Virus record (IMG/VR): IMGVR_UViG_3300030090_003676
Location: 1-25,004 of that record
Source: a virus
Direction: 5' to 3' (one strand)
Length of the DNA stretch: 25,004 nt
The notes beneath the pieces were generated by a model, which saw only the letters and a program-made list of their open reading frames with translations, did not search any database and was not told where the DNA came from. Position numbers and translations under genes: made by a program. Below are positions 612 to 20,659 of the stretch, piece by piece. Positions within the stretch are counted from its first letter, which is position 1. Each line of letters starts with the position of its first letter.

Positions 612-1760
612 ATGGCGCACGCATTAGAAGAAGCGTGGGCTGTTCTCAAATACGATTACGAAGACGATTACTACTCTGATGATGACGCTGACGAGTTTAT
701 GACTTTGGACAGCGAAGAAGAAGAGTTGACTGACGAGGAGATAGAAGAGCGGAAGCGTGCTTTGGAGCAAATGGCTTACCAACCGAACCCTCTTGAATTG
801 CCCACGATTGGTCGTGAGTTGGATGACGTTGCTGGCTCACAACAAGAGCAAGATGTGCGCGAGCAATGGGGCGATGATTTAGGTGAATTGAGGTCAGAAA
901 GGCACAAGCGTGACTACAGTCATTTAGACCCTAACGAGGCTGGTTGGCATCGTGAAATGGACCGACGCGCGAGCAACATAGCGGCCGCCTATATGCCATA
1001 TCTTACTGAACTTTACGAACGACACAAGCGTGCTGTTGAAGAAGGTAATACTCAAATTGCGAATGACGCCATAAGTGAAATGAATAAACAAGGGGGCAGA
1101 CTTCGTATTGGTGAATTGTTGGGTGATGAAGAAGCCATTGAGGAATTGAAGCAGTTTGACCTATCAAGTGCGGCAAGAGACATGGGTTTTGGTGGAGATG
1201 ATGAAGAAGTCATGGATGTTGACGATGAGCCGGACAAGCCCCCTCGTAGCAGAAAAGAGATGAATCTTGACGAACAAATGCTACAATCAGGCCCGGTAGG
1301 GGTAACATCACAACGTCGATACACAGGTGGTAGAGGTGTCCGTGAAGACAGGGGTTACGAGACGCGTCAAGTCCGTGTCAAACCAGCAAGCAGAAGTGCT
1401 TGGTTGGGTGGCGCAGATAGAGCCGCTCGTACAGACAAAAGTGGGCGCATCATCATAGGTGACAAAGAAAGTGAGGCGGATTTGTCTCGCCAAGGAAGAC
1501 TCGCATACATCAACGCGCATCAAAAATACGCAAGACTTCATCAACAGCGTGCCAATAGCGAAGGGGCATGGGCGTATCAGCGCCCTGAAACTCATCCTGA
1601 CTTTGAGGGCGAACTGCCCCCACCCGGCTCGGTAGTGGTTCGTAACCGTCCAACTCATCGGGGCGGACAGCGTGACCCAAAGAGTGAAAAAGTTGCTATT
1701 CCGGCATCTACTTACAAAAAGCCGCACCCATCATTGGTCGACAATGAAGAGGAAGAGTGA
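612..1760 (+). CDS. acidic hypothetical protein, probably structural or virus-specific
   Basis: I do not recognise this 382-aa protein. The ATG at 612 is chosen because it gives MAHALEEAWAVLK, a start that resembles the N-terminus of the protein at 16672-17100 (MMSAFSQAWQILK). A GTG at 534 would run through the divergent minus-strand gene. Residues 14-50 are strongly acidic (runs of Asp, Glu and Tyr). A helical, charged middle part follows, with a second acidic patch near residues 190-210. The C-terminal half is basic and Arg/Gly-rich (near QRRYTGGRGVREDRGY), and the end is EEEE. No Shine-Dalgarno is visible, so the mRNA may be leaderless or the start may differ. It overlaps the next gene by 4 bases, so the two are probably co-expressed. 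The low-complexity, mostly polar composition suggests disorder. Confidence 0.8.
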   Translation: MAHALEEAWAVLKYDYEDDYYSDDDADEFMTLDSEEEELTDEEIEERKRALEQMAYQPNPLELPTIGRELDDVAGSQQEQDVREQWGDDLGELRSERHKRDYSHLDPNEAGWHREMDRRASNIAAAYMPYLTELYERHKRAVEEGNTQIANDAISEMNKQGGRLRIGELLGDEEAIEELKQFDLSSAARDMGFGGDDEEVMDVDDEPDKPPRSRKEMNLDEQMLQSGPVGVTSQRRYTGGRGVREDRGYETRQVRVKPASRSAWLGGADRAARTDKSGRIIIGDKESEADLSRQGRLAYINAHQKYARLHQQRANSEGAWAYQRPETHPDFEGELPPPGSVVVRNRPTHRGGQRDPKSEKVAIPASTYKKPHPSLVDNEEEE

Positions 1761-4492
1761 ATGTCATGGTAGATGAAAAGACCAACAAAGTGCGCATCGT
1801 TGATGATGAGACAGAAGCGGCAGAAGCGGCACTTCGCGGTGGGACACCTCGCCCGTTCAGTGGTAAAATGACTTGTCCCGGTTGCGAAAATGGTAAGGCT
1901 TTGGGTCTGAAAGTACCTCCGTCGGACCCATCATACAAAGTGTTCCAGCATTTGAAGAGTCATCACGAACACAACACATGGAACATCAGGCGACTCCCTG
2001 AAGGACGGATGACGCGCGATGACGTTTTGGGATTTCAAGTGCCTCATCCTCACGAAATGATTCATCATGGTGAAGATGGCAATTCACGCGTGGGTGGGTT
2101 TTTCAACACGCAAGGTCATCTTGCGCACAGAAAAGGGCACCCAACACCAAATATAGGAATGGGGCAGGCGAAGCAGTTAATCAATTATCTTGAAAATGAG
2201 GCGCCTATGGCCGGTGCATTCAACAATCCCGAACTCAACAAAATTCTCGGGCTTGGTCACCCACAAACTGGTATGAATAGTGTTCAAAACATCACTACAG
2301 GTGAATGGACCCATCAGCCTGTAGAATTTGGCAAAATGCGAGCAGGTGACGACCTTCACTGGCACAATATCGGCATGAAGAAAATTATGCGGATGGGTAA
2401 CAACAATGTCGCCAAAGAAGTAAATGTGCCCGACCCTGACCACCCATATCCCGGTCTTGGGCCGTGGTTGCAGTGGCAACATACTCAAGGCCCCGTAGCA
2501 TTGCATAATGAAGCAGAAGAGCGACTGAATAAATTCAATCAGCATGACCATTTGCGAAGTGTAGGGGAAAAGGTGAGGGTAGGGAAGACCCCTTGCGGCT
2601 ATTGCGCAGGTCACGGAACAGTGCAAGGGTTCAGAGTAATGGCTTATCTTGGCGCGTTCCCTGATTGGCATACAATAACAACGGTGCCTGTAAAGACAGG
2701 TCAGACTTGGTCTGCTGGTGTGGACAGACCTGAGACAGAGGGCATAACGTGGGGCGCAGAACTCAACACTCAGCACGAAGAGCATGACCAACACCATGAT
2801 GAAGTTAATCAGTATCTTTCTGTTCATAGTGCGCCTTTTGGTAGACAATGGGCAACCAATGACCCATTTACGGAATTGCAAGAGGACCAAAGTAACACTT
2901 ACCTGTGCCCTGAATGCTCAGGGCTTGGTATTTGCACACCCTGTGGCGGTGACGGCGAAATACCTGTGGTTGACCCATCAATGAGCGAGGAAGAGGCGCA
3001 AGAATTCAATGAATCATGGCCGCGCTGGAAAAAAGCAACAAACATTGCATTTAGCGCGCCGGGCCAACCATTCATGCAACCCGGCGTTAGTGCGTCAGGC
3101 GAACCACTCCCGTCATTCTTCCAAACTGAGCCGGGACCGGGTCAGTTCAAATTGCGGACGGATTACACTGATGCGCCGCCTTATATCGCGCCACCATCAG
3201 GTTTGTCGAGAGGCATTGTGCCTGTTGTACGACCTCAACGCGGACACATGACTGCAAGACAAAAAGAAAAGGCGGCGGAAAGAGAGGAAAAGCGACGTGA
3301 AGCAAGAGCGAAAAGAGGGCGAGTAGGAGTTGGCAATGAAAATTGGTTGGATGACCTGCGTCAAAAATTAAGACAGCCTAGTTTAGGCATGCCCCCTGTA
3401 AAATTAGTCCAGTCACCATTGCCACAACCAGTTGCACCACCATTACAAGCACAAGAAGCCATCTTTGATGAAGGAGGTAGAATGACAGGTGTTATCGGTA
3501 GTAGCGGGGTTCCCGCGTCGTTACAGCGTGATGATGATGATGATGATGATGAAGTCGGTGAAAACGAACTTTATCACGCTCACGACGAAAGTGACCACCG
3601 CAATTTCAAATTGATTGATAACAAAACGCCATTTGAGCATCATGGTAACCAAGCATGGGATGAGTGGGACGACCGCAAATTTATTCCAAATCAGTTCAAA
3701 CAACCAAAAGAAACCAACTCGTATGGTCAAGGTATAGGGTTCCGCATTGATGATAAAGGGCGTGGTTTTATTGACGATACCGTCGCTAACGAAAAGTGGA
3801 AAGAAGCACACGCTGATAGCAAAAGCGAATGGGAATCGCGTCGTGCTTCGGGCTTGGTGTTGCCACCTGACACACCAACACAAGACGATGATATAGCAAG
3901 CATTAACCAAAAGAAGCAAAAAGATTTGAATGCTTCACGCAAAAAAATAATGCAACAAATGACAAGTCGCATTTACAGGTCACCGAATACAATATGGCGT
4001 GACCGTTCATTCCGTGATTTGCAAGCGGCGCTTAAACACGGCGGGCTTGAAGGTACACGCGTAACTGGTAGCAAGTTAGACAATTCTCACTTGTTACGAG
4101 AGTTTGAGAAGCGTGGTGGTGGTGATGGTGCTAAGGGCAAGATTGATGATGAGGAGCATGTCATGAATTCGCCTTTGGCAGAAATGGCTCTCTTCCGTAT
4201 GATACGCGCTGTTCATCCTGACTGGTTACCTAGCGCGCATGATGATTTGCGCATGCCCCATGATGATTATATCAGCATGGCTACAGCGAAACAAAAACAA
4301 CTGGATGAGGCAGTTGACTCACTTAATTTGTCTGAAGGTGCGTTAATGCGCGATGCGCTTGCGATACTGAAATTTTATGATGAACATGCGCCTGCGCGTA
4401 AACGGGTCGGGGTCGTTGACACCGTCGCATCCGTGTCGTCTCTCAACCACGCGGCTTCGGCCCACCCTAGCAAAATCGGCGTCAAAAGATGA
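1757..4492 (+). CDS. large protein with split DnaJ-type CxxCxGxG zinc motifs
   Basis: This is a 911-aa protein starting at GTG 1757 (GAGG at 1749-1752 upstream, 4-base overlap with the previous stop); ATG 1766 is the alternative. Near the N-terminus CPGC at residues 40-43, followed by His65 and His69/70, forms a C2H2-like zinc site. CGYCAGHG (280-287), CPECSGLG (384-391) and CTPCGGDG (393-400) each match the CxxCxGxG repeat of the DnaJ cysteine-rich domain. Only three repeats are present, and a stretch of about 96 residues separates the first from the other two. There is no J-domain HPD motif in a suitable position, so it is not a normal DnaJ. The middle is Pro-rich (QPVAPP at 557-562) and then Lys/Arg/Glu-rich, followed by seven Asp in a row. 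The C-terminal part is helical and charged. The role is unknown; a zinc-bound protein-interaction or chaperone-like role is inference. Confidence 0.8.
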   Translation: MNVMVDEKTNKVRIVDDETEAAEAALRGGTPRPFSGKMTCPGCENGKALGLKVPPSDPSYKVFQHLKSHHEHNTWNIRRLPEGRMTRDDVLGFQVPHPHEMIHHGEDGNSRVGGFFNTQGHLAHRKGHPTPNIGMGQAKQLINYLENEAPMAGAFNNPELNKILGLGHPQTGMNSVQNITTGEWTHQPVEFGKMRAGDDLHWHNIGMKKIMRMGNNNVAKEVNVPDPDHPYPGLGPWLQWQHTQGPVALHNEAEERLNKFNQHDHLRSVGEKVRVGKTPCGYCAGHGTVQGFRVMAYLGAFPDWHTITTVPVKTGQTWSAGVDRPETEGITWGAELNTQHEEHDQHHDEVNQYLSVHSAPFGRQWATNDPFTELQEDQSNTYLCPECSGLGICTPCGGDGEIPVVDPSMSEEEAQEFNESWPRWKKATNIAFSAPGQPFMQPGVSASGEPLPSFFQTEPGPGQFKLRTDYTDAPPYIAPPSGLSRGIVPVVRPQRGHMTARQKEKAAEREEKRREARAKRGRVGVGNENWLDDLRQKLRQPSLGMPPVKLVQSPLPQPVAPPLQAQEAIFDEGGRMTGVIGSSGVPASLQRDDDDDDDEVGENELYHAHDESDHRNFKLIDNKTPFEHHGNQAWDEWDDRKFIPNQFKQPKETNSYGQGIGFRIDDKGRGFIDDTVANEKWKEAHADSKSEWESRRASGLVLPPDTPTQDDDIASINQKKQKDLNASRKKIMQQMTSRIYRSPNTIWRDRSFRDLQAALKHGGLEGTRVTGSKLDNSHLLREFEKRGGGDGAKGKIDDEEHVMNSPLAEMALFRMIRAVHPDWLPSAHDDLRMPHDDYISMATAKQKQLDEAVDSLNLSEGALMRDALAILKFYDEHAPARKRVGVVDTVASVSSLNHAASAHPSKIGVKR
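3530..3550 (+). repeat. GAT trinucleotide repeat, seven copies
   Basis: Seven consecutive GAT codons give seven Asp residues in the 911-aa protein. Slippage here would change the length of the Asp tract without shifting the frame. Confidence 0.9.
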
Positions 4493-4576: not shown

Positions 4577-5170
4577 ATGCCACATCAAAGTGATTATGAA
4601 GGGAGCCCTGCCTCGGGGAGCCGAGAGGCGAGACCTATGCCGGGCTATACACCACCACCACAGCGAAACGAAGACGAACTGAAAGTCATGGGGTTAATTG
4701 CTTTCATCTCACTACTTGTAGGTGGGGCGATTGCAATTTTCGATGCACGATTGTGGCTACGAATGGATGATTCAGTTTACACCAACGCACTGACTTACAC
4801 AATGGGTGCATTCACCCTCCAAGGTATTTCATACTTCATTTACAAGATGCTCATGCAAGACAGCATGGACAACCGAGCCGTTTATGCTCGTCAGCAAAAA
4901 GACCGTGACAGAAAAATCATGCACATGCAACAAATGTTCAGTAACAGGCAAATGGAACAAGAATTGCGGTTGCAAGAGTTGCAATTGGAAGCACAATTGC
5001 GCATGATGGAAAATGACCCGGAAGTATTGATGAGAGGGCTTGCGTACAGCGCGGCCGAACCACCTCGTGAAGAATTCGCACCTGCCCCAAAGCATGAAGC
5101 GAAGTCTGACAAACCACTTGACCTTGGTGCGAGTAAAGTGGTTGAAGAGAAAACCAAGGGGAAGAAGTGA
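4577..5170 (+). CDS. two-pass membrane protein with long coiled coil
   Basis: This 197-aa protein has no recognised family. A polar, Pro-rich N-terminus (1-35) is followed by two hydrophobic segments at about 37-55 (VMGLIAFISLLVGGAIAIF) and 70-90, joined by a short loop. A Gln/Glu/Met/Arg-rich helix at about 98-152 (MEQELRLQELQLEAQLRMM) looks like a coiled coil, and the tail is Lys/Glu-rich. The ATG at 4577 has no Shine-Dalgarno and follows a candidate TATA box at about the leaderless distance. It is the first gene of a cassette that contains two more membrane proteins and a GTPase. The coiled coil may bind a partner in the cytoplasm or virion; this is inference. Confidence 0.85.
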   Translation: MPHQSDYEGSPASGSREARPMPGYTPPPQRNEDELKVMGLIAFISLLVGGAIAIFDARLWLRMDDSVYTNALTYTMGAFTLQGISYFIYKMLMQDSMDNRAVYARQQKDRDRKIMHMQQMFSNRQMEQELRLQELQLEAQLRMMENDPEVLMRGLAYSAAEPPREEFAPAPKHEAKSDKPLDLGASKVVEEKTKGKK

Positions 5171-5413
5171 ATGGGTTGGTTGTTCAAAACCCCAAGCGAT
5201 GATGCGGTCGAGCGCACAATGCGCGCATGGAACACACAAAATCTTGTTGACCGTGAGTATCAGCGCTTTTGGGGTTGGTTAAAGGTCGCACTCGCGGTTC
5301 TCATCACAACATTTGTGATTTCAGCCGTCGAATTCTATTGGGGGATGAGTCTATGGGAAAAGACAGTCACCCGCATTAGTGAATGGGCTAGTCATCAATT
5401 GGACAAGTTGTGA
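5171..5413 (+). CDS. small one-pass membrane protein
   Basis: An 80-aa protein starting at ATG 5171, immediately after the previous stop. One clear hydrophobic segment lies at about 38-58 (VALAVLITTFVISAVEFYW). It is flanked by a polar, Trp-containing N-terminal region and an amphipathic C-terminal helix. A GGGGAAG sequence about 12 bases upstream could serve as a weak Shine-Dalgarno. I recognise no family. It sits between a two-pass membrane protein and the GTPase gene, so a role as a membrane partner or receptor for the GTPase is a reasonable guess from context only. Confidence 0.8.
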   Translation: MGWLFKTPSDDAVERTMRAWNTQNLVDREYQRFWGWLKVALAVLITTFVISAVEFYWGMSLWEKTVTRISEWASHQLDKL

Positions 5414-5419
5414 TGTCAC

Positions 5420-6142
5420 ATGGTTGCGATGGCAGGTTCTGCGCTAGTTGGCGCGGCAGTATGGGGCCAGCAACTCTACAACTATTGGAAGCCGCGCCGT
5501 GTTGGGTTCTATGGCCCAACGATGGTGGGAAAGACCACGCTTGACCAATTTATGACGACACCCGGTGAAATGGCTGAAATCCCTGAAGATATGCGCACTG
5601 CGCACCCAAAGCGATTGCTAAAGGCGGGCTATGTGTTACCGCGCCCAACACGCAAGCGCATTCGATGGAAGGGCGAAAGACGTGTCATACATAGTGCGGA
5701 TGTCGGTGGGCAACAACGGTTTTGGAACCTGTGGATTGATGATATGGTAGACAGGCAAGTAGAAATTGTCGTGTTTATGATAGATGAGCGCACACTCAAG
5801 GGCGGTAACGGCGCGATAGATTGTGTTGGTGGCTTCAAATTCCTTGTGGACTCAATTGTCAACCAGCGATGGAATTATCGCAGAATGTGGACTCGTTGGC
5901 GTGGTAAACGGTATAAGCCACGTCTTGTTTTGCTTGTAGCGAACAAAGCCGATGTGTGGTGGGACGAACAGGCGAACGTGCTATGGCAACAGCAACGGTT
6001 GCGTGAGCATCGTATCTTCGATAAGTTGCGCGATTCGATGGTGGAATTGCAAAAAGCAGGTGTTCCATGTCGCGTGTCTATGATGGCAACACGCATTGGT
6101 TGGAACGTAGAAAGCACTTTAATTGACATGGTGTCGTGGTGA
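5420..6142 (+). CDS. Arf/SR-beta-like small GTPase with hydrophobic N-terminus
   Basis: This 240-aa protein carries the ordered motifs of a small GTPase: G1 P-loop GPTMVGKT at about 32-39, G3 DVGGQ at about 94-98, G4 NKAD at about 175-178, and a possible G5 at MMATR near 220-224. DVGGQ followed shortly by LW, and a hydrophobic strand ending in an acidic residue (IVVFMIDE), is characteristic of the Arf, Arl, SR-beta and G-alpha group rather than Ras or translation GTPases. The first 15 residues (MVAMAGSALVGAAVW) are hydrophobic and could anchor or insert in a membrane, as the N-terminal segments of Arf and SR-beta do. A basic insertion (about 150-166, Arg/Trp/Lys-rich) lies before G4. Neighbouring membrane proteins support action at a membrane. 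Nucleotide binding is well supported; what it controls is unknown. Confidence 0.88.
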   Translation: MVAMAGSALVGAAVWGQQLYNYWKPRRVGFYGPTMVGKTTLDQFMTTPGEMAEIPEDMRTAHPKRLLKAGYVLPRPTRKRIRWKGERRVIHSADVGGQQRFWNLWIDDMVDRQVEIVVFMIDERTLKGGNGAIDCVGGFKFLVDSIVNQRWNYRRMWTRWRGKRYKPRLVLLVANKADVWWDEQANVLWQQQRLREHRIFDKLRDSMVELQKAGVPCRVSMMATRIGWNVESTLIDMVSW

Positions 6143-6159: not shown

Positions 6160-7110
6160 ATGATGCAACCTATATTTGGGCAGAGGCAACAACCACTTGC
6201 GCAAAATACACATGTGGAATTGGCGCGCATAGCGTCGAATACAAGTAACGCATCTCTTGCACAATTGCAGGGGATGGCGCAAGCACAAGGGATAATGCAA
6301 GCGGCGGCAGAAGAGCAACCGCACATTGAGATTCCTCGCGTCAATTTTTATCCTTCAAACCACCCAAACCCGCGAAAAGCGCGCAGAAGAGACATCAAAC
6401 AGGCATATCGTTTGTTGAGTCCGACAAAACGTAAATGGTATTCGCCGTTGCGATGGTTGGGTAGCAAATATCGCTACAACAAGAACACATCACAGTGTGT
6501 AGTCGATGGGTGTGATGTTGACTATCTTCTCAAGGTTATGGGCAACGTCTATGATGAAATTCGTGACGAAGAGACAGGTAAGTCGCTTTGGGAGATGTAT
6601 TTCGTTGACCCTGTGTCAGGCGAACCGCGAGCATTCCTTGCAAGAGAAGGTGTAACAGGTGGGCGCACAATGCGCGGCACATATTGCCCTGAGCATTTGC
6701 ATCTATATCACGTCTTGACCAAATGGGAGAAGGAAGAAGAACGTGAGCGCGACGGGTCAAAAAGCACGTTGCGTGAGCGAGTCAAGAAGGGTGTGAGCAT
6801 GGTCGCAGTACCTATTACTGCTGTTGCCGCAAGAGATAACACGCCCCCAACACTTCAGAAGTATGAGCCGTTCTTCCGTATGTTGCGCGCTGATAAAATT
6901 CCCGTCCAGCATCTCAAAAATACACAGACCGGTGAAAACCGCCTAACAATTGTCATTTTCGATGCAGACCAATTCGCGGACGGTGCGTCAGGCGAACCTC
7001 TTTTGACGGGGCAACTTCAAACAGGTGAGCCTGCTCCGGTAGGTGCGGGCTTGCAACAATTGCTCGTCGAAACACAAGCATCGCGCGATAATTTACCCGA
7101 GGTGGAATAA
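6160..7110 (+). CDS. hypothetical protein with possible zinc site, GTPase cassette
   Basis: A 316-aa protein starting at ATG 6160, with GAGGGG at 6146-6151 as Shine-Dalgarno. The first 55 residues are Gln/Ala-rich and probably helical. A basic stretch (about 70-105) follows. Cys113, Cys118, Cys176, His179, His181 and His184 (in TYCPEHLHLYH) could bind one or two metal ions. The C-terminal third contains a Lys/Glu/Arg helix and a predicted beta-strand segment (NRLTIVIFDADQF). I recognise no family. Its stop and the next gene's start overlap by one base, so it belongs to the same transcript as the GTPase and the membrane genes. Confidence 0.8.
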   Translation: MMQPIFGQRQQPLAQNTHVELARIASNTSNASLAQLQGMAQAQGIMQAAAEEQPHIEIPRVNFYPSNHPNPRKARRRDIKQAYRLLSPTKRKWYSPLRWLGSKYRYNKNTSQCVVDGCDVDYLLKVMGNVYDEIRDEETGKSLWEMYFVDPVSGEPRAFLAREGVTGGRTMRGTYCPEHLHLYHVLTKWEKEEERERDGSKSTLRERVKKGVSMVAVPITAVAARDNTPPTLQKYEPFFRMLRADKIPVQHLKNTQTGENRLTIVIFDADQFADGASGEPLLTGQLQTGEPAPVGAGLQQLLVETQASRDNLPEVE

Positions 7111-7730
7111 TGGTTTGGCCGTTTTCAAACAATAATCAACAACAACCGACTAACACAATGAATCTTGGTTTACCAAATGGTGCGCAGACTACGCAAGGGG
7201 GAGGGCAATTCCCCAGCGCGTGGGGTGCAGGTCCTCCCCCTCAAGGTCAAAATCCATTTTTGGCTGGTATGGGTGTGCCCAACCAACCCATGCAACCACC
7301 ATCTGAGTTAGAGTTGATTGCAATGTTACAGCAGTCAGCGGCACCTGTAGATGCGTGGGTCGCAGGGAATAATTTCCAACAAATGCTCGGTGTTATCTCA
7401 TCGCTTGTCACACTCAATCTTGTGACATTTTTTCGTGACGCACGGTTTGTTGATGACGGAAACGACGGATTAAAATTGGATATTTCATCACTACCGAGCG
7501 ATATGCAGACAATGAGTGCGGAAAACGTCACCGCGGCTTTGAGTCAATTGCAACAGGCCGCCAATCAGGCTGTTGTCGAGAGTGTGGGGCGACAGCAACA
7601 AATTTTGATGATGGGGCAACAGTCCATGCTCAACTCCCTCATGAACAATGAAGGTGTGTTGGAAAGAGCAGGGCAGGCGACCGGTGGGTTAATGCGTGGG
7701 ATGTTTAACGCCGCTACAGGAATGAGATGA
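7110..7730 (+). CDS. Gln/Pro/Gly-rich hypothetical protein, GTPase cassette
   Basis: A 206-aa protein starting at ATG 7110, overlapping the previous stop by one base, with GAGGTGG just upstream (7098-7104). Residues 1-65 are low complexity and rich in Asn, Gln, Pro and Gly, probably disordered. Residues 66-205 look helical. They include a short hydrophobic run near 88-104 (MLGVISSLVTLNLVTFF), which is borderline for a membrane segment, and a Gln/Met-rich helix at 145-185. No family is recognised. Linked by spacing to the membrane and GTPase genes around it. Confidence 0.8.
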   Translation: MVWPFSNNNQQQPTNTMNLGLPNGAQTTQGGGQFPSAWGAGPPPQGQNPFLAGMGVPNQPMQPPSELELIAMLQQSAAPVDAWVAGNNFQQMLGVISSLVTLNLVTFFRDARFVDDGNDGLKLDISSLPSDMQTMSAENVTAALSQLQQAANQAVVESVGRQQQILMMGQQSMLNSLMNNEGVLERAGQATGGLMRGMFNAATGMR

Positions 7731-7734
7731 TAAC

Positions 7735-7992
7735 ATGGATGCAAGCATTAAACCAACCAACCCGTTTTCTCCGGCGACATTGACAATTGCTATGAGTGAT
7801 ATGACCAATCTCGGTCGCTCTGTTGTTGTCGATTTAATCATGGTGCAAGTTATCGCAATGGTGCTTGGCACATTCTTGCTTATTGTGACCAACGGCTATC
7901 AAATGACCTCGACGCAGTTGGTTTGGTCAATGCTCATTCTATTCACAGCCTTCACAATGACTGGTGTAGTTTACAGGCGACTATCTAATTAG
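7735..7992 (+). CDS. small two-pass membrane protein
   Basis: An 85-aa protein starting at ATG 7735, five bases after the previous stop. Two hydrophobic segments, at about 30-52 (VVVDLIMVQVIAMVLGTFLLIV) and 60-79 (LVWSMLILFTAFTMTGVVY), make a hairpin membrane protein with a short basic tail. It has the size of a holin, but so do many small viral membrane proteins, and no lysis gene is next to it. It is the last + strand gene of the cassette. Its TAG stop overlaps the stop of the convergent minus-strand gene. Confidence 0.8.
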   Translation: MDASIKPTNPFSPATLTIAMSDMTNLGRSVVVDLIMVQVIAMVLGTFLLIVTNGYQMTSTQLVWSMLILFTAFTMTGVVYRRLSN

Positions 7993-8240
7993 TCCCATTT
8001 GCCAAGCGGGCATTTGCTGTTTTTGAGTGTCGTCTTGGTTTTCATAAAACAACCACATTCACGACACCGTGAGCCTGTCCATGCAGGGCACTCAAGACAT
8101 ATTTTCATGCGCTCTTCTGCCTTTTCGGGTGTTACTTGATTGCGCATAGCCATGTCTTTTGCCGCTTTCATCAAGTCTTTTGCTGTCTTTGCCGTGATAG
8201 GTATGCCAGCAACGCGCGGCGCTCGGTTAAGTCGTCTCAT
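7989..8240 (-). CDS. small cysteine-rich zinc protein
   Basis: This minus-strand gene encodes 83 aa from the ATG at 8240; a TTG at 8261 would add seven residues. A helical basic N-terminus is followed by a Cys cluster: CLECPAWTG, then SRCRECGCFMKTKT, then SKCPLGKW. This CxxC / CxxCGC-FMK / KCPLGKW layout is a familiar short zinc protein in marine tailed phages. I know no confirmed function for it. It lies antisense between two + strand units: its stop overlaps that of the convergent gene ending at 7992, and its start faces the divergent gene at 8293 (or 8239). The family resemblance, not the reading frame alone, is the reason for calling it. Confidence 0.85.
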   Translation of the reverse strand: MRRLNRAPRVAGIPITAKTAKDLMKAAKDMAMRNQVTPEKAEERMKICLECPAWTGSRCRECGCFMKTKTTLKNSKCPLGKWD

Positions 8241-8292
8241 GAGTGTGGCGTCTAGCCGCAACCCCTTTGAGTTATCGGCCTATCGGAGACTG

Positions 8293-8973
8293 ATGGCGGA
8301 GAGAATCACCCGAGCGTCGTGTCGGCTTTGCCAGCACGAAGACCGTGATGAATTGGAAAAAGAATTGCGCGAAGGTATTGTCACACCAAAGGAACTCGAC
8401 AAGCGCATGGGGTGGCGTGAAAACACAACTGACCGGCATTTTAGAAACCACATGGGTGACTACCACATGGCGTCCAATTCAGAATGTAAAGTCTGCACCC
8501 ATTTCAATCGATTTGCAATCGAAGAGGATTTCTACAACGGTGACACAACAACCGAGGCAATTGCGGAACAGTGTGGTTGCTCGGAGACCACAGTGTATCA
8601 TCATTTCAAGCATCATCTCAAACCCCTAGTGCAAGCATCAGCCGCGCCAGTTATTGCGATTAAAGCCGGGCAAGAGATGGAAACACTGCGTTCAAACGTC
8701 GAGAAATTGAATGGAGAATTGGGACACCTGTTTGATAATCCTGACCGCAACGACCCTGCGTTCTACGCCAATTTGACGCGTATGCACAAAGAGACGCGCG
8801 AGACAGTCAAAGACATTCTCAAAATACAAGAGCGCGCGATGGGTGGTAACACTGAGTCGTCCATTACCGCCAACACTGTGAATCTCATCAAAGTTGAATT
8901 GGCAAAAGAATCGCCTGAAGTATGGCGACGTATTCGTTCACAGTTGGTCGAAGACGGAGAGGATGAAAGTTGA
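8293..8973 (+). CDS. tandem zinc/helix-turn-helix protein, probable small terminase subunit
   Basis: A 226-aa protein from the ATG at 8293, with GGAG at 8285-8288; ATG 8239 in frame would add 18 residues and overlap the start of the divergent gene. It contains two copies of one module: Cys10-x2-Cys13 with His49 and His53, then Cys65-x2-Cys68 with His104 and His108. Spacing is identical in both. Each module carries a helix-turn-helix-like segment (TPKELDKRMGWRENTTDRHF and TEAIAEQCGCSETTVYHHF). CxxC plus HTH plus HxxxH proteins of this kind are found beside phage packaging genes and are often annotated as terminase small subunits. The C-terminal half is helical. TerL lies about 4.8 kb downstream, farther than usual, so another DNA-binding role remains possible. 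Confidence 0.7.
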   Translation: MAERITRASCRLCQHEDRDELEKELREGIVTPKELDKRMGWRENTTDRHFRNHMGDYHMASNSECKVCTHFNRFAIEEDFYNGDTTTEAIAEQCGCSETTVYHHFKHHLKPLVQASAAPVIAIKAGQEMETLRSNVEKLNGELGHLFDNPDRNDPAFYANLTRMHKETRETVKDILKIQERAMGGNTESSITANTVNLIKVELAKESPEVWRRIRSQLVEDGEDES

Positions 8974-9395
8974 CTCACGTCCCTATGAATGTCTTGACGT
9001 GCAGTGACATAGAAGGGCATCAACTATTGCACTTTTACGGGCCATTGGCTCACCAAGAAGTGTCGTTGTATTTTGATTTGCTACAGATGACATTCGATAG
9101 ATGGTATGAGGTCGTGGGTCATATTGGGCCTGCTGTTTATGCCAATTATTCACAAAACAAAGAGTTGCTTGGTGACATACAAGATTTGTTCGATGAAGTG
9201 CTGGAAGAGGATGACCCGATGCAGGCATGGAAAGTGCGCAAAGAGTTGCGCATGCGCCTTGACGCACTGGATGTTGTCGTTGCAAATATGGCACAGGTGT
9301 TCCATGCTCCGCGTTTACTCCACGAATTCTATTACAACCTCGCTTCGCGCCTTCGCGCCACCTATGATTATATCATAGGGGGTGATGCGCAGTGA
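8970..9395 (+). CDS. hypothetical 141-aa helical protein
   Basis: The TTG at 8970 is preferred as start because GGAGAGG (8956-8962) lies seven bases upstream and the TTGA overlaps the previous stop. The ATG at 8985 is too far from that site. The protein is acidic in the middle (DEVLEEDD, about 70-80) and appears mainly alpha-helical, with many aromatic and Leu residues but no membrane segment. I recognise no family. Its position directly after the probable TerS and before the large structural-like genes suggests a packaging or virion assembly role, by context only. Confidence 0.75.
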   Translation: MTHVPMNVLTCSDIEGHQLLHFYGPLAHQEVSLYFDLLQMTFDRWYEVVGHIGPAVYANYSQNKELLGDIQDLFDEVLEEDDPMQAWKVRKELRMRLDALDVVVANMAQVFHAPRLLHEFYYNLASRLRATYDYIIGGDAQ

Positions 9396-10666
9396 CAATG
9401 ACCGACGACAGTCTATTGAAAACAGGCAATACTTCCGGCGGTCAATCCGGCCTTCGATATAACCCGCGTGAGACTGCTGGTGATGAGGTGGGTTATGGCG
9501 TATCACACACCAAATACAACCCTCGTGACCCTGAAGAAAAAGCGAACGAAGAGGAAGAGAAGGCAAAGAAGAAGGAAAAGCGCGCACATGCCAAAGCGGG
9601 CTTACAGCATATTAAAATCAAAATTCCGAACAAAAAGCGCGAAGAAGAAGAAGCGCGTAAAAAGGAAGCAGAAATTTCAGAGTTGACTGGACCGGCCGCC
9701 TCGCGCGGCGGTGACTTAGACCAAGCCGTTGGCACAAAAACCGGAACCGGTAGTGCAATGGGTGGTGGTGTTGATGGGATGCCGCCAAATCTTCCTATTG
9801 CGGGTGCATTCGGTCAAGGTGGTGCGTTTGTCCGTGCATTCAATGTCCTCAAAGACCGACAAAGTATGGGAACCGAGACAATCGAATCGGTTCGCGCAAA
9901 AGACCGTGGTGAGAGAGGGGCACGCACTAAACGACAAGGATTTATGTCGGGAGGTGAGCGTGGCAAAAAGGGCGGTAAACCACTCAAAACACGATTCCGT
10001 GGTCCTATGCAACGCGCTCGACAACACGTTCATCAGAGAGTGGAAGAGGGCGAAAGAGCGCAAGGTAATCCAATTATTTCACATTTGTATGGTGGGGGTG
10101 GCAAACGCCGCCCTTCTATTGGGATGGACCCTCGTATTCGTGAACAACGCATTGGTCGTCAAGACAGAATGAGAGACGAACCAGCACAGGATGTTGTGAC
10201 ACCTTTGCCTCAACGAACAGGCTTTGAGGCGAAGCGAATGCCGAAAATTCGTGGACGAGCGCCACCCAAAATTAAGCAAATTCAGAAGCCGCGCAGGCCC
10301 CGGACGCCGGGTGGTGCTGGTAAAACTCCAAAGATTGGGGGAGCGGTCTCGCCTTTAGCGAAGTCAGTAACCGAAGACGTATTGGAAATTGGCAACCTCT
10401 TGACTAAGAGGCGCGATTTCAACCAAAGCCAAATTTTTGAGTTAAGGCAGTTGTTGCGTCAAGCGAAAAAATTACTCGGTGATTTGACAAAAAAGAGTTA
10501 CATGCCCGGTCAAGGAGATGATGCTGAAGGTCCTTCGCCCAATGCGTCGCGTAAGCAGACAAGTTACAACACAGGCGCAACAGAAGTCGATGATGATTGG
10601 GGTAGCCCGCTTGATTGGGGGGCGCACCCATACGGATTGCTGGTTGGACGGAGGGGACAACCATGA
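9392..10666 (+). CDS. highly basic low-complexity protein
   Basis: A 424-aa protein, start GTG 9392, with GGGGGTGAT at 9378-9386; the ATG at 9398 is an alternative two codons in. Residues 45-95 are a Lys/Glu/Arg helix, probably coiled coil. A Gly/Ala/Met-rich part follows, then long Arg/Lys-rich stretches (near EQRIGRQDRMRDE and PKIRGRAPPKIKQ), and a helical segment at about 330-365. The C-terminus has Asp-Asp-Asp-Trp-Gly and Trp-Gly-Ala-His-Pro. The strong positive charge suggests binding to DNA, for example as an internal virion protein; this is inference. It overlaps neighbours by 4 bases at both ends. Confidence 0.75.
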   Translation: MTMTDDSLLKTGNTSGGQSGLRYNPRETAGDEVGYGVSHTKYNPRDPEEKANEEEEKAKKKEKRAHAKAGLQHIKIKIPNKKREEEEARKKEAEISELTGPAASRGGDLDQAVGTKTGTGSAMGGGVDGMPPNLPIAGAFGQGGAFVRAFNVLKDRQSMGTETIESVRAKDRGERGARTKRQGFMSGGERGKKGGKPLKTRFRGPMQRARQHVHQRVEEGERAQGNPIISHLYGGGGKRRPSIGMDPRIREQRIGRQDRMRDEPAQDVVTPLPQRTGFEAKRMPKIRGRAPPKIKQIQKPRRPRTPGGAGKTPKIGGAVSPLAKSVTEDVLEIGNLLTKRRDFNQSQIFELRQLLRQAKKLLGDLTKKSYMPGQGDDAEGPSPNASRKQTSYNTGATEVDDDWGSPLDWGAHPYGLLVGRRGQP

Positions 10667-12465
10667 CGAATATCATCTATCTCAACCGAGGCGGCAAAAC
10701 CATTCGGAAAGGGCACGGAGTGTCAGCGAGTTTTGATGACGGTTCTTCGCATATTTTGGAAGGGGAGAATCACGCCCCTGATGGTTACGAATGGAACCCG
10801 TTTTTCCATGACCCTCGACCCCACGTTATGGGGCCGCGTCAGGATTTAAGCCTCGATTACTTTGGCAGAAAAGTGAACCATTTATTCCCCAAGGAAGCCG
10901 TTGCTCATAAGATGGCTAAACAACTCATTGACGCTGGACGAGTCCACCCTGACGATGCAGAAAGACATGTCAAACACGACATTATGAACGAAGCAGTGCG
11001 GCGAAAAAACGCACACATGATTAGAATGGGTCGACCTGACCAAGTCGCACCAATTCCGTGGGACGATGATATGCAACTGCATGATGATTACAAGCACATG
11101 ACAGTCTCGCCAAAATATCAAGCGAAGAATTTGATGACTCATGAGCGCGATGTCATGACAGACTACAATGGTCGCAAAGTGCCAATCAATTATTTTCCCG
11201 GCACCAATAAAAATTCAGGGCAGTCACACGTCGAATCGGCCGCGCAACACGAGTGGCGCGAAGGTCATCAAGTCCTACAAGAACTCGGTCATCGTGACCA
11301 CACGAGTGTTTACAACAAATCACATGTCGAGCCGGGGACTATGACCGGTCACAATGTGTATCGGCACCAAGCACCACCTCAAGGTGGCTCGACGGTTCCC
11401 GGCGGACATACACCGCGTGGTGCGCAAGAAAAATACAATCAGACGCGCGAACTGCCTCCGGCAGACCCGGCAAACATTTTGTTCGGTAAAGATGGGTCGC
11501 CCAAACTCCCTCCGGCGTTTTGGCTCAAAAGTAAGACAAATACGTCGAAAAATGTCGGGCCTGAACTTCAAGAAAAGTATGGTGTTCAAGACCCGCAGTT
11601 ACTTGATGCTATGGCGCATTCTGCGGTCGGTCAACTGCTTGCGGGGACCGGAAGACGCTCAGGTAACCGTTTAGACAAGTTGATGGATAAGTTGGCTGAT
11701 TTATTGGACATCGAAGGTGAAAACGCCGAAGACTACAAGATAATTCACTCAAACACACCACATTCGACTACATGGACCGGTCGGGGCTCAAAAGCAGGGC
11801 GCAATTTGGCCGCAATGATACGTCTCGCTGAATACAAGCAAATTGATTTGTCAAACTTTGACGGTGTGTCGGGAGACCAAGTGTCCGCAGGGCCGCAGAT
11901 TATGCGCGAATGGCAACGAATTGTACCAATGATTGGGCAAAATCGTGGCGGTGCGGCAGAAGCACACGATTGGGATGCGCCTATGCCTGAACGAGCGCAT
12001 TCTTCAGCGCAATTACCTCAACAAGTGCAATCAATTTCAGATGGGCCTACCACACATGCGCCTGCGCCACGCCCACCTCAAGGTCGAAGAGAGGTTGAGG
12101 AAGAACCCGCGTTACCAACAACTCCTCGTCAGCGCCCTTCACCATTTGGTGAGCGGCCACTCGATAGAAGTGGAATGGACAGTCCATTCGGTGAGCGCGA
12201 CCCAACAATGCGCATATTGCGCGCAATAGAAGATATGCAATTATCGATGGCTCGGCAAGACAAATCAATTTTGAAGCATTTGCCCACAAAACGCGACTTA
12301 AGTATTCAAAATGCGCAAGACGTTAGTCTCGTAGCATCACGTTTAGGCGTAACTTCCGGTGACGTTCACGGTCTATACGCGGCAGGTGGGGATTGGGAGC
12401 GCGTAGCGAAACAATTTAGAGTAACCCCCTCTCTCGTCGCGGCTATCAAGGTGGCCTTCTCATGA
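10663..12465 (+). CDS. large hypothetical protein, 600 aa
   Basis: Start ATG 10663 is chosen because GGAGGGG (10650-10656) lies six bases upstream and the ATGA overlaps the previous stop; an upstream GTG at 10615 lacks this. The N-terminal 300 residues are polar and His/Asp/Gly-rich with few hydrophobic runs. Residues about 325-425 look like a folded helical domain (ELQEKYGVQDPQLLDAMAHS to MREWQRIVPMIG). A Pro-rich linker follows, with SPFGER repeated twice near 492-515. The last 50 residues (VASRLGVTSGDVHGLYAAGG and WERVAKQFRVTPSLVAAIK) resemble a small helical or helix-turn-helix module. No family is recognised. Placed upstream of TerL in one transcript, so a virion or assembly role is likely. 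Confidence 0.78.
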   Translation: MTNIIYLNRGGKTIRKGHGVSASFDDGSSHILEGENHAPDGYEWNPFFHDPRPHVMGPRQDLSLDYFGRKVNHLFPKEAVAHKMAKQLIDAGRVHPDDAERHVKHDIMNEAVRRKNAHMIRMGRPDQVAPIPWDDDMQLHDDYKHMTVSPKYQAKNLMTHERDVMTDYNGRKVPINYFPGTNKNSGQSHVESAAQHEWREGHQVLQELGHRDHTSVYNKSHVEPGTMTGHNVYRHQAPPQGGSTVPGGHTPRGAQEKYNQTRELPPADPANILFGKDGSPKLPPAFWLKSKTNTSKNVGPELQEKYGVQDPQLLDAMAHSAVGQLLAGTGRRSGNRLDKLMDKLADLLDIEGENAEDYKIIHSNTPHSTTWTGRGSKAGRNLAAMIRLAEYKQIDLSNFDGVSGDQVSAGPQIMREWQRIVPMIGQNRGGAAEAHDWDAPMPERAHSSAQLPQQVQSISDGPTTHAPAPRPPQGRREVEEEPALPTTPRQRPSPFGERPLDRSGMDSPFGERDPTMRILRAIEDMQLSMARQDKSILKHLPTKRDLSIQNAQDVSLVASRLGVTSGDVHGLYAAGGDWERVAKQFRVTPSLVAAIKVAFS

Positions 12466-13793
12466 ACAAATATGATATTCTCAAACAAGAATATGCGGTA
12501 AAGCGCATTTCATCTAGTGAGGCGGAAGCCGTTGCTGAAATCATGGCAAAGGCTGATTTGAATTATGATGTGGAAGAGTGGGTGTGGACTGGTAACACAG
12601 GCGCGCTACTCAAAAATTATCCACAATTGCCACAGGCGCAGATGGGCCAAACGCCGGAATCAATGGCAATGCACCAACAAGGGGGATATGCCCCTGTTCA
12701 GTCTCATTCACAACCCGGCGGAATGTTTGGGTTGATGCCCGCCAAGCATACGATGTATGACCCAACCGGTGGAAACACTATGTCAGGCACCCGAGGGCAG
12801 ATGCAACGCCAAGCGCGTGCTACACCCGAAGGCAGTCCACAGCGCGCAATGTACCAACAGCAATTCGGTGAAATTAAGCCAAGCGCGGGTAGGCGTTTGA
12901 TGTCTGCGCTAGGTAGTGCTGGACGATTTATGGGTCGAAAGGCAGGCGACGCGGGACGATTCGCAAGAGACAAAGTCGCGCCAGCAATGATGGCCGCTGG
13001 TCGAGGCGCAATGGACCGAGGGGCCGCGGCTTTCGCAGGCGCAGATGCTGGTCTTGAGGCTGGTATGACAGGCGTGAAAAATTTCGGTACAAATCTTATG
13101 GGCGGTATCAAGAACATTGGGTCACAAGCAAGAAATGCCGCAAGAGCGGAGATGGACCGAAGGCAGAATATGCCCGAGCGTCGTCAAGGCAGTCTTTCTG
13201 ACCAAGTTGCCGCTTTAGCGGCTCAGGAACAGCCTGACGCTATGGAAGCAATGAGCATGGGACAAGACCCTACACCAGTTGCACCACCTGCTTCACAACC
13301 TGCTTCACCACCTGCTTCACAACCTGCTCCTTCACCAGTTGCACCACCGACTGGTGATGATTGGGGCATTACCGATGAAAATTGGGGCGCGCAACAAGAG
13401 CCTACACCAGTTGCACCACCTGCTTCACAAGAGCCTACACCAGTCGCACCACCACCAACGACCCCTCGTCAGACTGGTCAAGTCGCTGTTGGTAGCGGGC
13501 ACTACGGGCCATTGAAGGAAGGCAGTGCGCCTGCAAGACAATGGATGGAGTCGCAGACAGGAGACCCTCAAGACCCGATGTCCGGTTGGGAGTCTGCGCA
13601 CGCGGCGAATCAAGCACTCATTGACATGAAGGCCGGAAAACCATTCGACCCGAACATTCACAAGCCCGGTAAAGGGTTTGGACAGCGTTCCTATGAACGT
13701 GGTGCCAAACAGCCGCAAATGTTTGGTCAAGACATCAGGGCGTCAATGGATGCTCACAAAATAGCATGGGACGCGCTTCTTAAGGGGCTGTGA
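12462..13793 (+). CDS. low-complexity protein with Pro/Ala/Ser repeats
   Basis: A 443-aa protein from ATG 12462, overlapping the previous stop by 4 bases. The first 50 residues form a helical, charged domain (MNKYDILKQEYAVKRISSSE). A Gln/Met/Gly-rich region follows, then an Arg/Ala/Gly-rich part (about 140-240). Next is a repeat region with PTPVAPPASQ-type units (270-330) and two DxxWG elements. The C-terminal 100 residues look more folded and end in AHKIAWDALLKGL, which resembles the N-terminal AWxxLK motif of two other proteins here. No family is recognised. It could be a scaffold or internal virion protein; the evidence is composition and position before TerL only. Confidence 0.75.
   Translation: MNKYDILKQEYAVKRISSSEAEAVAEIMAKADLNYDVEEWVWTGNTGALLKNYPQLPQAQMGQTPESMAMHQQGGYAPVQSHSQPGGMFGLMPAKHTMYDPTGGNTMSGTRGQMQRQARATPEGSPQRAMYQQQFGEIKPSAGRRLMSALGSAGRFMGRKAGDAGRFARDKVAPAMMAAGRGAMDRGAAAFAGADAGLEAGMTGVKNFGTNLMGGIKNIGSQARNAARAEMDRRQNMPERRQGSLSDQVAALAAQEQPDAMEAMSMGQDPTPVAPPASQPASPPASQPAPSPVAPPTGDDWGITDENWGAQQEPTPVAPPASQEPTPVAPPPTTPRQTGQVAVGSGHYGPLKEGSAPARQWMESQTGDPQDPMSGWESAHAANQALIDMKAGKPFDPNIHKPGKGFGQRSYERGAKQPQMFGQDIRASMDAHKIAWDALLKGL
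13269..13453 (+). repeat. coding repeats of the PTPVAPPASQ type
   Basis: A 30-base unit encoding PTPVAPPASQ is identical at 13269-13298 and 13401-13430, with partial copies between them and after (to about 13453). The same motif, with synonymous changes, recurs in the giant open frame near 23312-23377 (APVAPP, EPTPVAPP), and 14 of its bases recur in the 911-aa gene at 3428-3441. Confidence 0.85.
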
Positions 13794-13799
13794 TTCTGT

Positions 13800-15191
13800 G
13801 TGTCTCAGTTTGATGACCCGATTCTTGAAATAGATTGGGAAATGAGCAAGAAAGACTTCACGTTCTTCTTCCAAGACATCCTCGGGTGGCAATTGTCACA
13901 TCATCACGCCGCATGGGTGCATAATCTGCATACTCACGACCGATATTGCGTAAAAGCGGCTCGTGACCACGGAAAATCCGTACTTTTTCTCTCCTACCTG
14001 CTATGGCGCGTTGCATTTACGCCAAAAACGAAGGCAATCATCTTTTCTCACTCACTTGACCAAACAATTCGTCACATGCGCTTCATGGATGACATGATTC
14101 AGTCCACACCTATCCTCAAACACCTGCGTTCAAAAGATTCGTGGGCCAAAACGTACTTTGGATTCACCAATGGGTCATTTGTAAGCGCAAAATCGGTTGG
14201 TGGCGCGGTTCGTGGCGCGCACCCTGACATTATCCTGTGTGACGACATTCTGTGGGGCACCACTGACACTGAATTGCAGAAAGTGGCCTCATGGTTCTAC
14301 GAAGTCATGGTCCCAACCCTGCACCACAGTGCGAAATTGATGATTGTCGGTACACCGTTTACACCGACTGACCTTTACACAGAACTGGAATCAAAAGACG
14401 GGTATCTTGTTGAGACATATCCCGCGATAAATGAGAGGGGTGAGTGTCTTTGGCCTGAACGATGGGACTTGGACGCACTCGATGTGCGCCGAAAAGACAT
14501 GCCCGCTGTCGCATTTGCGCGTGAATACTTGTGTGAGCCCATTGATGACGCAAGCAGTCTGTTCCCAACCGCAGTCTTGCAACCATGCCGCGACCGAGGA
14601 TTGTCGCTTTACTCGCGCAGACCTGAAGATGATGATGCGCAGTATTTCATTGGGTGGGACCCAGCGATTTCATCCGATAGGTCGGCCGACTATACTGTAA
14701 TGATTGTCTTACGGCAACAGATTGATGACCCGATTCTTGAAATTGTACATGTTGTCAGGCGAAAGGGTATGGATTTCCGCACACAAATCATGGAAATCCA
14801 GCGGTTGAATGCAAAATTCTCCCCTGACGTTATTGAGTTGGAAGCCAACCATTTTCAGCGCGTATTTGCAACCGAGTTGCGAGCCAATACTGACCTGCCC
14901 ATCAGGACATTCATTTCGTCCAAAACTAAGCGCGAATCAATGCTTATGGGTTTGGTCTTGAGGTATGAGCGCGAGCAAATACGCATGCCATACGCAGACG
15001 AATCGAGTCGTGAAATAACTCACACATTGGAAAATGAATTGCTCATGTTTGGGATGAGCCAAAAGGGAAAACTTGAATCGATTGGTCGTCACGACGACTT
15101 CGTGATAGCCCTTGCGCTCGCACAGTGGGCGACGACCGAATTCCGAGAGAGACTTGTTGATTTGTCTGATTTGATGCCGGGGCTGATATGA
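13800..15191 (+). CDS. terL: terminase large subunit
   Basis: A 463-aa packaging motor protein, which uses ATP to translocate DNA through the portal and cuts it with its nuclease domain. The start is GTG 13800, six bases after the previous stop. Visible motifs: Walker A AARDHGKS at 53-60; the typical segment AVRGAHPD leading to Walker B DIILCDD at 143-149; and a coupling segment with VGTPF near 182-186. The RNase H-like nuclease has Asp287 in FIGWDPAISSD, acidic Asp343/Glu346 in DVIELEAN, and a final acidic pair at 432-433 in GRHDDFVIALA. Length and order match a complete TerL. It is followed, with a 4-base overlap, by the LAGLIDADG-containing gene and then portal, a usual packaging order. 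Confidence 0.96.
   Translation: MSQFDDPILEIDWEMSKKDFTFFFQDILGWQLSHHHAAWVHNLHTHDRYCVKAARDHGKSVLFLSYLLWRVAFTPKTKAIIFSHSLDQTIRHMRFMDDMIQSTPILKHLRSKDSWAKTYFGFTNGSFVSAKSVGGAVRGAHPDIILCDDILWGTTDTELQKVASWFYEVMVPTLHHSAKLMIVGTPFTPTDLYTELESKDGYLVETYPAINERGECLWPERWDLDALDVRRKDMPAVAFAREYLCEPIDDASSLFPTAVLQPCRDRGLSLYSRRPEDDDAQYFIGWDPAISSDRSADYTVMIVLRQQIDDPILEIVHVVRRKGMDFRTQIMEIQRLNAKFSPDVIELEANHFQRVFATELRANTDLPIRTFISSKTKRESMLMGLVLRYEREQIRMPYADESSREITHTLENELLMFGMSQKGKLESIGRHDDFVIALALAQWATTEFRERLVDLSDLMPGLI
13810..13831 (+). repeat. 22-base direct repeat within terL, copy 1
   Basis: The 22 bases here are identical to 14722-14743 in the same gene and the same frame, 912 bases apart. Both copies encode DDPILEI. 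Confidence 0.9.
14722..14743 (+). repeat. 22-base direct repeat within terL, copy 2
   Basis: Second copy of the 22-base repeat. It lies just after the first nuclease aspartate of TerL and gives QIDDPILEI. Confidence 0.9.
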
Positions 15192-16675: not shown

Positions 16676-17100
16676 TGAGCGCGTTTTCACAGGCATGGCA
16701 GATTCTCAAAAGAGAAGACGATTACATCAGGGAAGAATTGGCACGGATGGGTGGACAGCACGAACAAGAAATCTTTGGTGCTGGTGCCGATGATGATGCC
16801 GCACTTTCTGCCATTCGCTCTACTGATGGTGGCTCATGGTATGACCATTTGAAGCGACTCAAGCAACGCGAAGAAGATGTGTTTGATGAAGCGAGTCAAG
16901 AGGCTGAATTGTCCATGAGTCAGCCCCCCTTCCTTACCCCATCTGAGAGACAGAGAGCAATCGAGAATTTGAAGTGGGGCAAGCGCCACGCTGTAAGGCG
17001 GATATATCCGCCTATGGGTCACCACGACCGCCGGGAGATTCACCGTCGTGCAGGGAGTCTGCCTGAACGCTTTTCTGAATATAGGGTTGATGTAGAATGA
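16672..17100 (+). CDS. small hypothetical protein with AWxxLK N-terminus
   Basis: A 142-aa protein from ATG 16672 (ATGA overlap of 4 bases; GGGTGGT at 16664-16670 upstream); ATG 16675 is equally possible. The N-terminus MMSAFSQAWQILKRED resembles that of the protein at 612-1760 and the C-terminus of the one at 12462-13793. The rest is charged and helical, with a basic C-terminal part (WGKRHAVRRIYPPMGHHDRR). No family is recognised. It lies between the LAGLIDADG gene and portal in one transcript. Confidence 0.78.
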   Translation: MMSAFSQAWQILKREDDYIREELARMGGQHEQEIFGAGADDDAALSAIRSTDGGSWYDHLKRLKQREEDVFDEASQEAELSMSQPPFLTPSERQRAIENLKWGKRHAVRRIYPPMGHHDRREIHRRAGSLPERFSEYRVDVE

Positions 17101-19158: not shown

Positions 19159-19190
19159 GTTGAATAAGTCGATGTGCGTGGGGTGAGAAC

Positions 19191-19550: not shown

Positions 19551-19554
19551 TACC

Positions 19555-20203: not shown

Positions 20204-20204
20204 A

Positions 20205-20645: not shown

Positions 20646-20659
20646 ACGGCGGTGATGGG

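Follow-up and report, generated by a model that had tools for sequence, protein, structure and literature searches.

Why should a tailed virus carry a gene whose product reads like an Arf-type molecular switch? We know of no tailed viruses that use Arf/Ras-type switches, and the open reading frame (ORF) that raises this question, at positions 5420-6142 of the 25,004-nt viral sequence analyzed here (hereafter, the window), had been described in an initial annotation made from the letters alone as an Arf/SR-β-like GTPase with a hydrophobic N terminus and adjacent membrane-protein genes. Herein we ask whether the protein is a GTPase at all, to which family it belongs, which viruses encode it, and what it may do for them.

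Sequence motifs and fold of the GTPase

The ORF and its motifs are as follows, with conservation given as counts among relatives:

5420-6142, plus strand: small GTPase of the Ras/Arf superfamily (240 aa, ATG start)
5423-5488, plus strand: N-terminal hydrophobic Gly/Ala-rich helix, residues 2-23, candidate membrane-binding element (AlphaFold2 secondary structure, hydropathy, and moment)
5513-5539, plus strand: G1/P-loop GPTMVGKTT, residues 32-40 (G32, G37, K38, and T39 invariant, 93/93)
5594-5605, plus strand: switch-I candidate RTxH, residues 59-62 (T60, 93/93; R59, 74/74; H62, 73/74)
5699-5734, plus strand: G3/switch II DVGGQQRFWNLW, residues 94-105 (D94, G97, and W105, 93/93)
5942-5953, plus strand: G4 NKAD, residues 175-178, guanine specificity (N, K, and D, 93/93)
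6083-6112, plus strand: G5-like MATRIGWNVE, residues 222-231 (SAQHGMNVE or SALHGYDVE in relatives)

Relatives of the GTPase were collected from IMG/VR (129 by one scan and 249 by an alignment-based scan), and scans from divergent members widened the family to ~33% identity; 326 loci, some fetched twice, condensed to 93 proteins at below 90% pairwise identity. All 93 contain GxxxxGK[ST], DxxG, and NKxD in order, i.e., the P-loop small-GTPase motif set, and the ordered G1-G3-G4 set was obtained in 0/200,000 shuffles of the window protein. The motif order and spacing first read from the sequence are confirmed. In the window protein, G1 lies in YGPTMVGKTTLDQF, G3 in HSADVGGQQRFWNLWIDDM, and G4 in LLVANKADVWW. 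Residues G32, G37, K38, T39, T60, D94, G97, W105, N175, K176, D178, and G227 are invariant in 93/93 relatives; the switch-I Thr60 among them, and the G5-like MATRIGWNVE, had both escaped the initial annotation.

Switch II has the Arf-like form GGQxxFxxLW, within a G3 consensus of DxGGQxxFxxLW; the second residue pair of G3 is GG in 71 and AG in 22 of the 93 relatives, with W105 present throughout. The G5-like region retains Ala or Ser at position 223 (93/93), G227 (93/93), N229 (82/93), and V230 (92/93), and in distant relatives it reads as the Ras/Rab "SAxxGxNV" motif, textbook SAxxGxNVE. Position 98, which holds the catalytic Gln of Ras and Arf, is Q in 58, E in 20, D in 13, and H in 2 of the 93 proteins; this variation amid otherwise frozen motifs suggests that hydrolysis may be slow or partner-assisted. 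Comparison of the window gene with its L002 counterpart (82% protein identity) revealed 43, 18, and 124 differences at codon positions 1, 2, and 3, respectively, a pattern indicating that the ORF encodes a selected protein under purifying selection.

An AlphaFold2 model built from 64 diverse sequences reached a pLDDT of 88.5 and a pTM of 0.85, the diverse alignment having cured the poor P-loop of an earlier model from near-identical sequences (pLDDT 70.5). The best 50 matches of the fold in the PDB were all small GTPases (Rab, Rho, Rac, Ral, and Ras-type), with E-values of 3e-8 to 5e-7 and a probability of 1.00. With TM-scores of 0.40-0.51 (query length) and 0.49-0.69 (target length), the similarity was moderate, presumably owing to the N-terminal helix, the longer switch-I region, and the greater overall length of the viral protein. 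Among predicted viral structures, searched with the first model, the top matches were small GTPases of giant eukaryotic viruses. Taking motifs and modelled fold together, we conclude that the window ORF encodes a genuine small GTPase of the Ras/Arf superfamily, predicted to bind and hydrolyze GTP.

In the model, the helix of residues 2-23 directly adjoins β-1 on its N-terminal side. It is hydrophobic, which confirms the N terminus claimed for the protein, yet in 65/71 relatives simple hydropathy does not score it as a full transmembrane (TM) span. Its amphipathicity is weak in the clade of the window and stronger in the L093-type clade.

Affiliation within the Ras/Arf superfamily

The Arf label holds as a likeness but is only partly supported as a classification. 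Against the Pfam Arf model (PF00025), the window protein scored 14.7 bits, below the curated cutoff of 22.3 bits, so Arf membership by this route was rejected; a search of the window's own record with the same model returned 0 matches, and the best match among the relatives had an E-value of 2.5e-4. Weak matches of single viral GTPases were to the Roc, Arf, MMR_HSR1, Ras, EF-Tu, SRPRB, and RagA models, all of them GTPases. The Roc model reached a best E-value of 3e-4 in 27/64 family members, below its cutoff, and left the window protein itself unmatched. SRPRB was among the weakest (7/64 members, best E-value 0.017, likewise below cutoff), and no SR-α-like gene was seen in the GTPase gene cluster.

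Leaning toward Arf are the G3 motif with its LW and two profile comparisons. Searched against the PDB, the family profile matched 8oun ("GTP-binding protein," E 4e-6), presumably the structure of an Asgard ArfR, and, at weaker E-values, Arl8 and Rab33; the 8oun match covers the helix-plus-P-loop (including the segment before the P-loop) and the GGQxxFRxLW segment. When 28 GTPases from a single Asgard genome bin were compared with the family, the highest scores (58 and 62, probability 95-96%) went to the two Arf proteins with an N-terminal helix. Alignment of the family with Asgard groups by hhalign, however, gave 96.8% for Arf-type and 97.1% for Ras-type proteins, over 159-168 columns. The phylogeny with Asgard GTPases was equally even-handed: in the maximum-likelihood tree, the viral proteins all grouped together with full support, and a long stem set them apart from Asgard Ras and Arf on the opposite side, but constrained trees cost nothing (p-AU 0.48 for virus plus Arf, 0.47 for virus plus Ras), and placing or rooting the family by tree was abandoned because neither grouping was favored.

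ArfR is described as exclusive to Asgard archaea, and Arf-type switches as exclusive to Asgard archaea and eukaryotes (PMC12554972). With Asgard ArfR and eukaryotic Arf/Arl/Sar, the viral protein shares DxGGQ/DxAGQ followed by xxFxxLW, as well as a helix directly before β-1; it differs in being longer, both overall (240 aa versus about 180-190) and in its switch-I region, in having RTxH instead of TIG, in its Rab-like G5 (SAxxGxNVE), and in a Gln that is often Glu or Asp. The overall fold and the G5 motif are those of Ras/Rab/Rho (RasL of archaea), as is the hhalign probability of 97.1%, whereas in G3 the viral family has Dx[GA]G[QED] plus LW where Ras types have DTAGQ, the candidate membrane anchor is N-terminal rather than C-terminal, and the viral family is a separate long-stem clade. 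SR-β resembles it in its N-terminal hydrophobic segment and relaxed hydrolysis residue, unlike it in the scarce SRPRB matches and lack of an SR-α-like neighbor noted above. Finally, the Ras/Rab-type GTPases of giant eukaryotic viruses are also virus-encoded and supplied the top viral fold matches, but those are named as eukaryotic Rab/Ras homologues, whereas the present one is divergent and belongs to the core genes of tailed viruses that infect prokaryotes. By its sequence, the protein represents a new family, deeply set apart within the Ras/Arf superfamily, that combines an Arf-like G3 and helix with a Rab-like G5 and for which "Arf/SR-β-like" is a fair description of resemblance, not of membership.

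A conserved gene cluster around the GTPase

The GTPase gene lies third in a co-directional cluster (order A, B, GTPase, D, E, F):

4577-5170, plus strand: gene A, membrane hairpin (1-2 TM segments) with a long charged helical tail (TM scan, alignment)
5171-5413, plus strand: gene B, 80-aa single-TM protein (TM scan; two sequence families, 68/74 loci)
6160-7110, plus strand: gene D, 316 aa, no known family (87/88 loci by profile, 74/74 by clustering)
7110-7730, plus strand: gene E, 206 aa (88/88 loci)
7735-7992, plus strand: gene F, 85-aa two-TM protein (TM scan; 66/74 loci)
8140-8973, plus strand: DNA-binding-type protein, terminase small subunit (TerS) candidate upstream of the terminase large subunit gene (weak PHROG DNA-binding matches; 74/74 loci; true start may be about 8191)

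The presence of adjacent membrane-protein genes, stated in the initial annotation, is confirmed by the TM segments of A, B, and F, which accompany the GTPase in other viral contigs as well. By profile, A, D, and E flank the GTPase gene in 88, 87, and 88 of 88 non-redundant loci, with A upstream in every case; the single D exception (L055) has D beyond the distance limit by profile, and clustering found it. Clustering over 74 non-redundant loci recovered A, D, E, and the TerS candidate in 73-74, B in 68, and F in 66. The GTPase gene lies 8.0-9.1 kb upstream of that for the terminase large subunit (TerL) in 24/24 loci with enough upstream sequence, and is absent in none, in a count anchored on a TerL query that reaches fairly close relatives only. 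The GTPase is a core gene of these genomes, which are magrovirus-like (see below).

Gene D has invariant C113, C176, and P177, conserved H179/H181/H184, and a basic motif, NPRKARRRDIKQ; its Cys and His residues are a possible Zn site. Gene E combines an N-terminal MVWPF with a Q/G/N-rich, low-complexity region and a conserved C-terminal domain. Neither protein had relatives among PDB profiles, nor D in Pfam, and consequently no GAP, GEF, or effector was identified among them.

The order A-GTPase-D-E recurs in a second, ~128-kb lineage, at L360 (in a Poseidoniales bin) and L379 (in IMG/VR). Beyond the cluster, the L360 contig has just a chaperonin and one small protein detectably in common with the magrovirus-like genome, and no TerL or portal relative was found on it. 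Because the order is kept in an otherwise barely related lineage, A-GTPase-D-E is likely a functional unit.

Other genes lie in or near the cluster. Upstream, at 1757-4492, is a gene for a 911-aa protein with DnaJ-like CxxCxGxG-type Cys/Gly motifs. A Cys-rich 90-aa gene (7989-8261, minus strand) sits inside the late cluster and is conserved at this place, likewise on the minus strand, in 37/74 loci. At about the same position, another clade encodes a small protein on the plus strand (L093, 10671-10955; L186, 10588-10839; L192, 10566-10832), in which Cys/His residues accompany an EF-hand/dockerin-like DxDGDGDFDxxDVK motif.

The viruses and their host

That the window derives from a tailed virus is confirmed by two genes:

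13800-15191, plus strand: TerL (Pfam, PHROG)
17281-19158, plus strand: portal protein (Pfam, PHROG), about 29% identical to the portal of Druskaviridae (HCTV-5)

Between them, an ORF at 15188-16675 contains a LAGLIDADG homing-endonuclease-like motif in AYAAGFIDADGYITI and has no Pfam match; downstream of the portal gene, an ORF of at least 1,448 aa (20660-25003, plus strand) runs off the window end.

Related contigs are up to 118 kb long, and PolB was detected in 19 of 25 records searched (two of these being cellular genome bins). In a 106.9-kb genome (G001), the left arm, on the minus strand, carries two large genes and the A, B, GTPase, D, E, F region, followed by the TerS candidate, TerL, portal, a relative of HCTV-5 gene 118, the major capsid protein (MCP), the tail tube, and finally a giant gene; PolB lies on the right arm, which is opposed to the left. 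The GTPase cluster therein opens the morphogenesis arm at its 5′ end. The giant tail-arm gene (7627-24264, minus strand; loci L088 and L089) is apparently a single ORF of some 5,500 codons that crosses the junction of two sequence pieces, with an open frame on either side.

With PolB, ~90-118-kb genomes, opposed arms, HK97-type head genes (portal and MCP) related to those of Druskaviridae, and a Poseidoniales host, these viruses fit the published description of the Magrovirales and are here called magrovirus-like. As host, Poseidoniales is supported by the single-cell genome AG-422-I20, in which portal, TerL, and the cluster lie on one 106-kb contig (GTPase 36% identical). The magrovirus literature covered, including ICTV profiles, makes no mention of a GTPase, although the gene may have been annotated before. 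Unlike these viruses, Druskaviridae HCTV-5 has no relative of the GTPase, and a halovirus origin of the gene was rejected on this ground.

The second virus-like Poseidoniales lineage (G280:C65, with loci L360 and L365-L370, plus L379) encodes a chaperonin and a PAPS reductase, with no portal or terminase recognized.

Distribution in cells and other viruses

A host origin of the GTPase was likewise rejected: the gene had no close cellular relative, and among 319 Poseidoniales genomes the family occurred in two, both times on virus-like contigs. Of 146 Poseidoniales genomes, none passed the Arf model cutoff, one (G106) passed the Roc cutoff, and 19 passed that of Ras, mostly through long frames (374-678 aa) with partial matches. 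G106 (C7, C15) also contains a full-length Ras (E 6e-33), along with another Ras or fragments interrupted by stops; this looks like eukaryotic contamination.

Matches in metagenome-assembled genomes (MAGs) labeled "Maricaulis," "Asgard," and "Cytophagaceae" (L082, L083, and L084) were rejected as cellular genes and judged to be viral contigs in bins, probably through misbinning: all three contigs have the viral GTPase gene, the Asgard-bin contig carries the whole viral cluster, and the Cytophagaceae contig coincides in length and coordinates with an IMG/VR virus record.

Searches of 50,697 phage records with two family members as queries found no recognizable relative, in keeping with the view that such a GTPase is unusual for tailed viruses. 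An Asgard Arf protein also found none there, and an Asgard Ras protein gave three weak matches, in unannotated records.

Possible functions

We favor a reading in which the GTPase is a membrane-tethered GTP switch that controls a virus-encoded membrane complex late in infection, for assembly or exit, and put its probability at roughly 45%. The N-terminal hydrophobic helix and the membrane partners A, B, and F would place the GTPase on the host membrane late in infection. GTP loading would then alter the switch regions, whereby the viral partners D (Cys/His), E (low-complexity), and A (hairpin) would be recruited or ordered. Hydrolysis would reset the switch, probably with help from a partner, as Glu or Asp often replaces the catalytic Gln. 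The resulting complex would most likely build a membrane site, either one at which assembly or packaging is docked or one at which the membrane is opened or remodeled for exit. The partners are probably viral, given that 0/146 Poseidoniales genomes pass the Arf model. Membrane localization, GTP cycling, a physical complex, and the role in assembly or exit are what we infer here, and adjacent genes are no proof of a complex. Speaking against this reading, the N-terminal helix does not amount to a TM span in most of the family and has only weak amphipathicity in the clade of the window; the G domain could instead be a soluble one working in packaging. The broader proposition, that large archaeal viruses run a late membrane event by their own Arf/Ras-type switch with dedicated viral membrane partners, we advance more tentatively.

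The same genes can be read differently. The GTPase might be an accessory of packaging or head assembly, a nucleotide-dependent timer or docking factor working with TerS and TerL, with the membrane genes as mere neighbors; its place in the late arm and its co-direction with TerL at a near-constant spacing in every testable locus fit such a role. We nonetheless consider this unlikely, as the hydrophobic helix is conserved and the most constant partners are the hairpin protein A together with D and E. These three are kept even in the ~128-kb lineage, in which the Pfam model detected no portal and a comparison against the magrovirus-like proteins yielded neither a TerL nor a portal relative. If instead A, B, GTPase, D, E, and F formed a particle-borne, membrane-penetrating apparatus for entry, their universality in the lineage would be that of structural genes, and their shared orientation with head and tail genes and several TM proteins would be expected; the cluster lies before TerS, however, and not among the tail genes, and a GTP switch requires an intracellular nucleotide pool, which together make a virion or ejection apparatus improbable.

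A role in host takeover is scarcely more appealing. Hijacking of a host secretion route had been suggested at the outset, and a mimic of a cellular switch could redirect membrane traffic, polarity, or an archaellum-type system in an archaeal cell with its own membrane systems, for which an Arf-like G3 would be apt. The sampled Poseidoniales genomes, however, have no Arf-type and almost all have no Roc/MglA-type GTPases, and those that pass the Ras model do so mostly by the partial matches described above; because no corresponding host pathway was found, we regard this role, too, as improbable. Finally, that the protein is no GTPase but a P-loop ATPase (Sak4/RadA/KaiC-like) with an accidental NKAD is hardly credible. 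Sak4-like proteins in PHROG did match weakly (18/64 members, best E 0.004), as did RecA polyprotein chains via the P-loop; these RecA matches, however, cover only about 16 P-loop residues, G3 and G4 are invariant, and the fold search was unequivocal. In hhalign, P-loop ATPase controls reached 0.4-25%, with scores of 17-33 versus 58-78 for GTPases, and RadA, RFC, TMP kinase, and TerL, all from a halovirus, aligned solely over the P-loop (14-26 columns), so that neither a different fold nor a better match to KaiC or terminase, either of which would have overturned the GTPase assignment, was found.

Significance

To our knowledge, how archaeal tailed viruses exit from cells or assemble at the archaeal membrane is largely unknown, and a GTP switch that is conserved together with several membrane partners constitutes a concrete candidate machine in a very abundant group of ocean viruses. 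It is surprising to find a GTPase as a standard gene in large tailed viruses of abundant ocean archaea, the sampled hosts of which have no Arf-type one. A deeply diverged relative of Arf-type proteins, as a core gene in viruses of another archaeal phylum, also bears on where and how such switches have spread. If the proposed reading is true, no earlier example of a membrane machine under small-GTPase control would exist among the tailed viruses of prokaryotes, and the family would represent a viral branch within the GTPase group from which eukaryotic membrane traffic arose.
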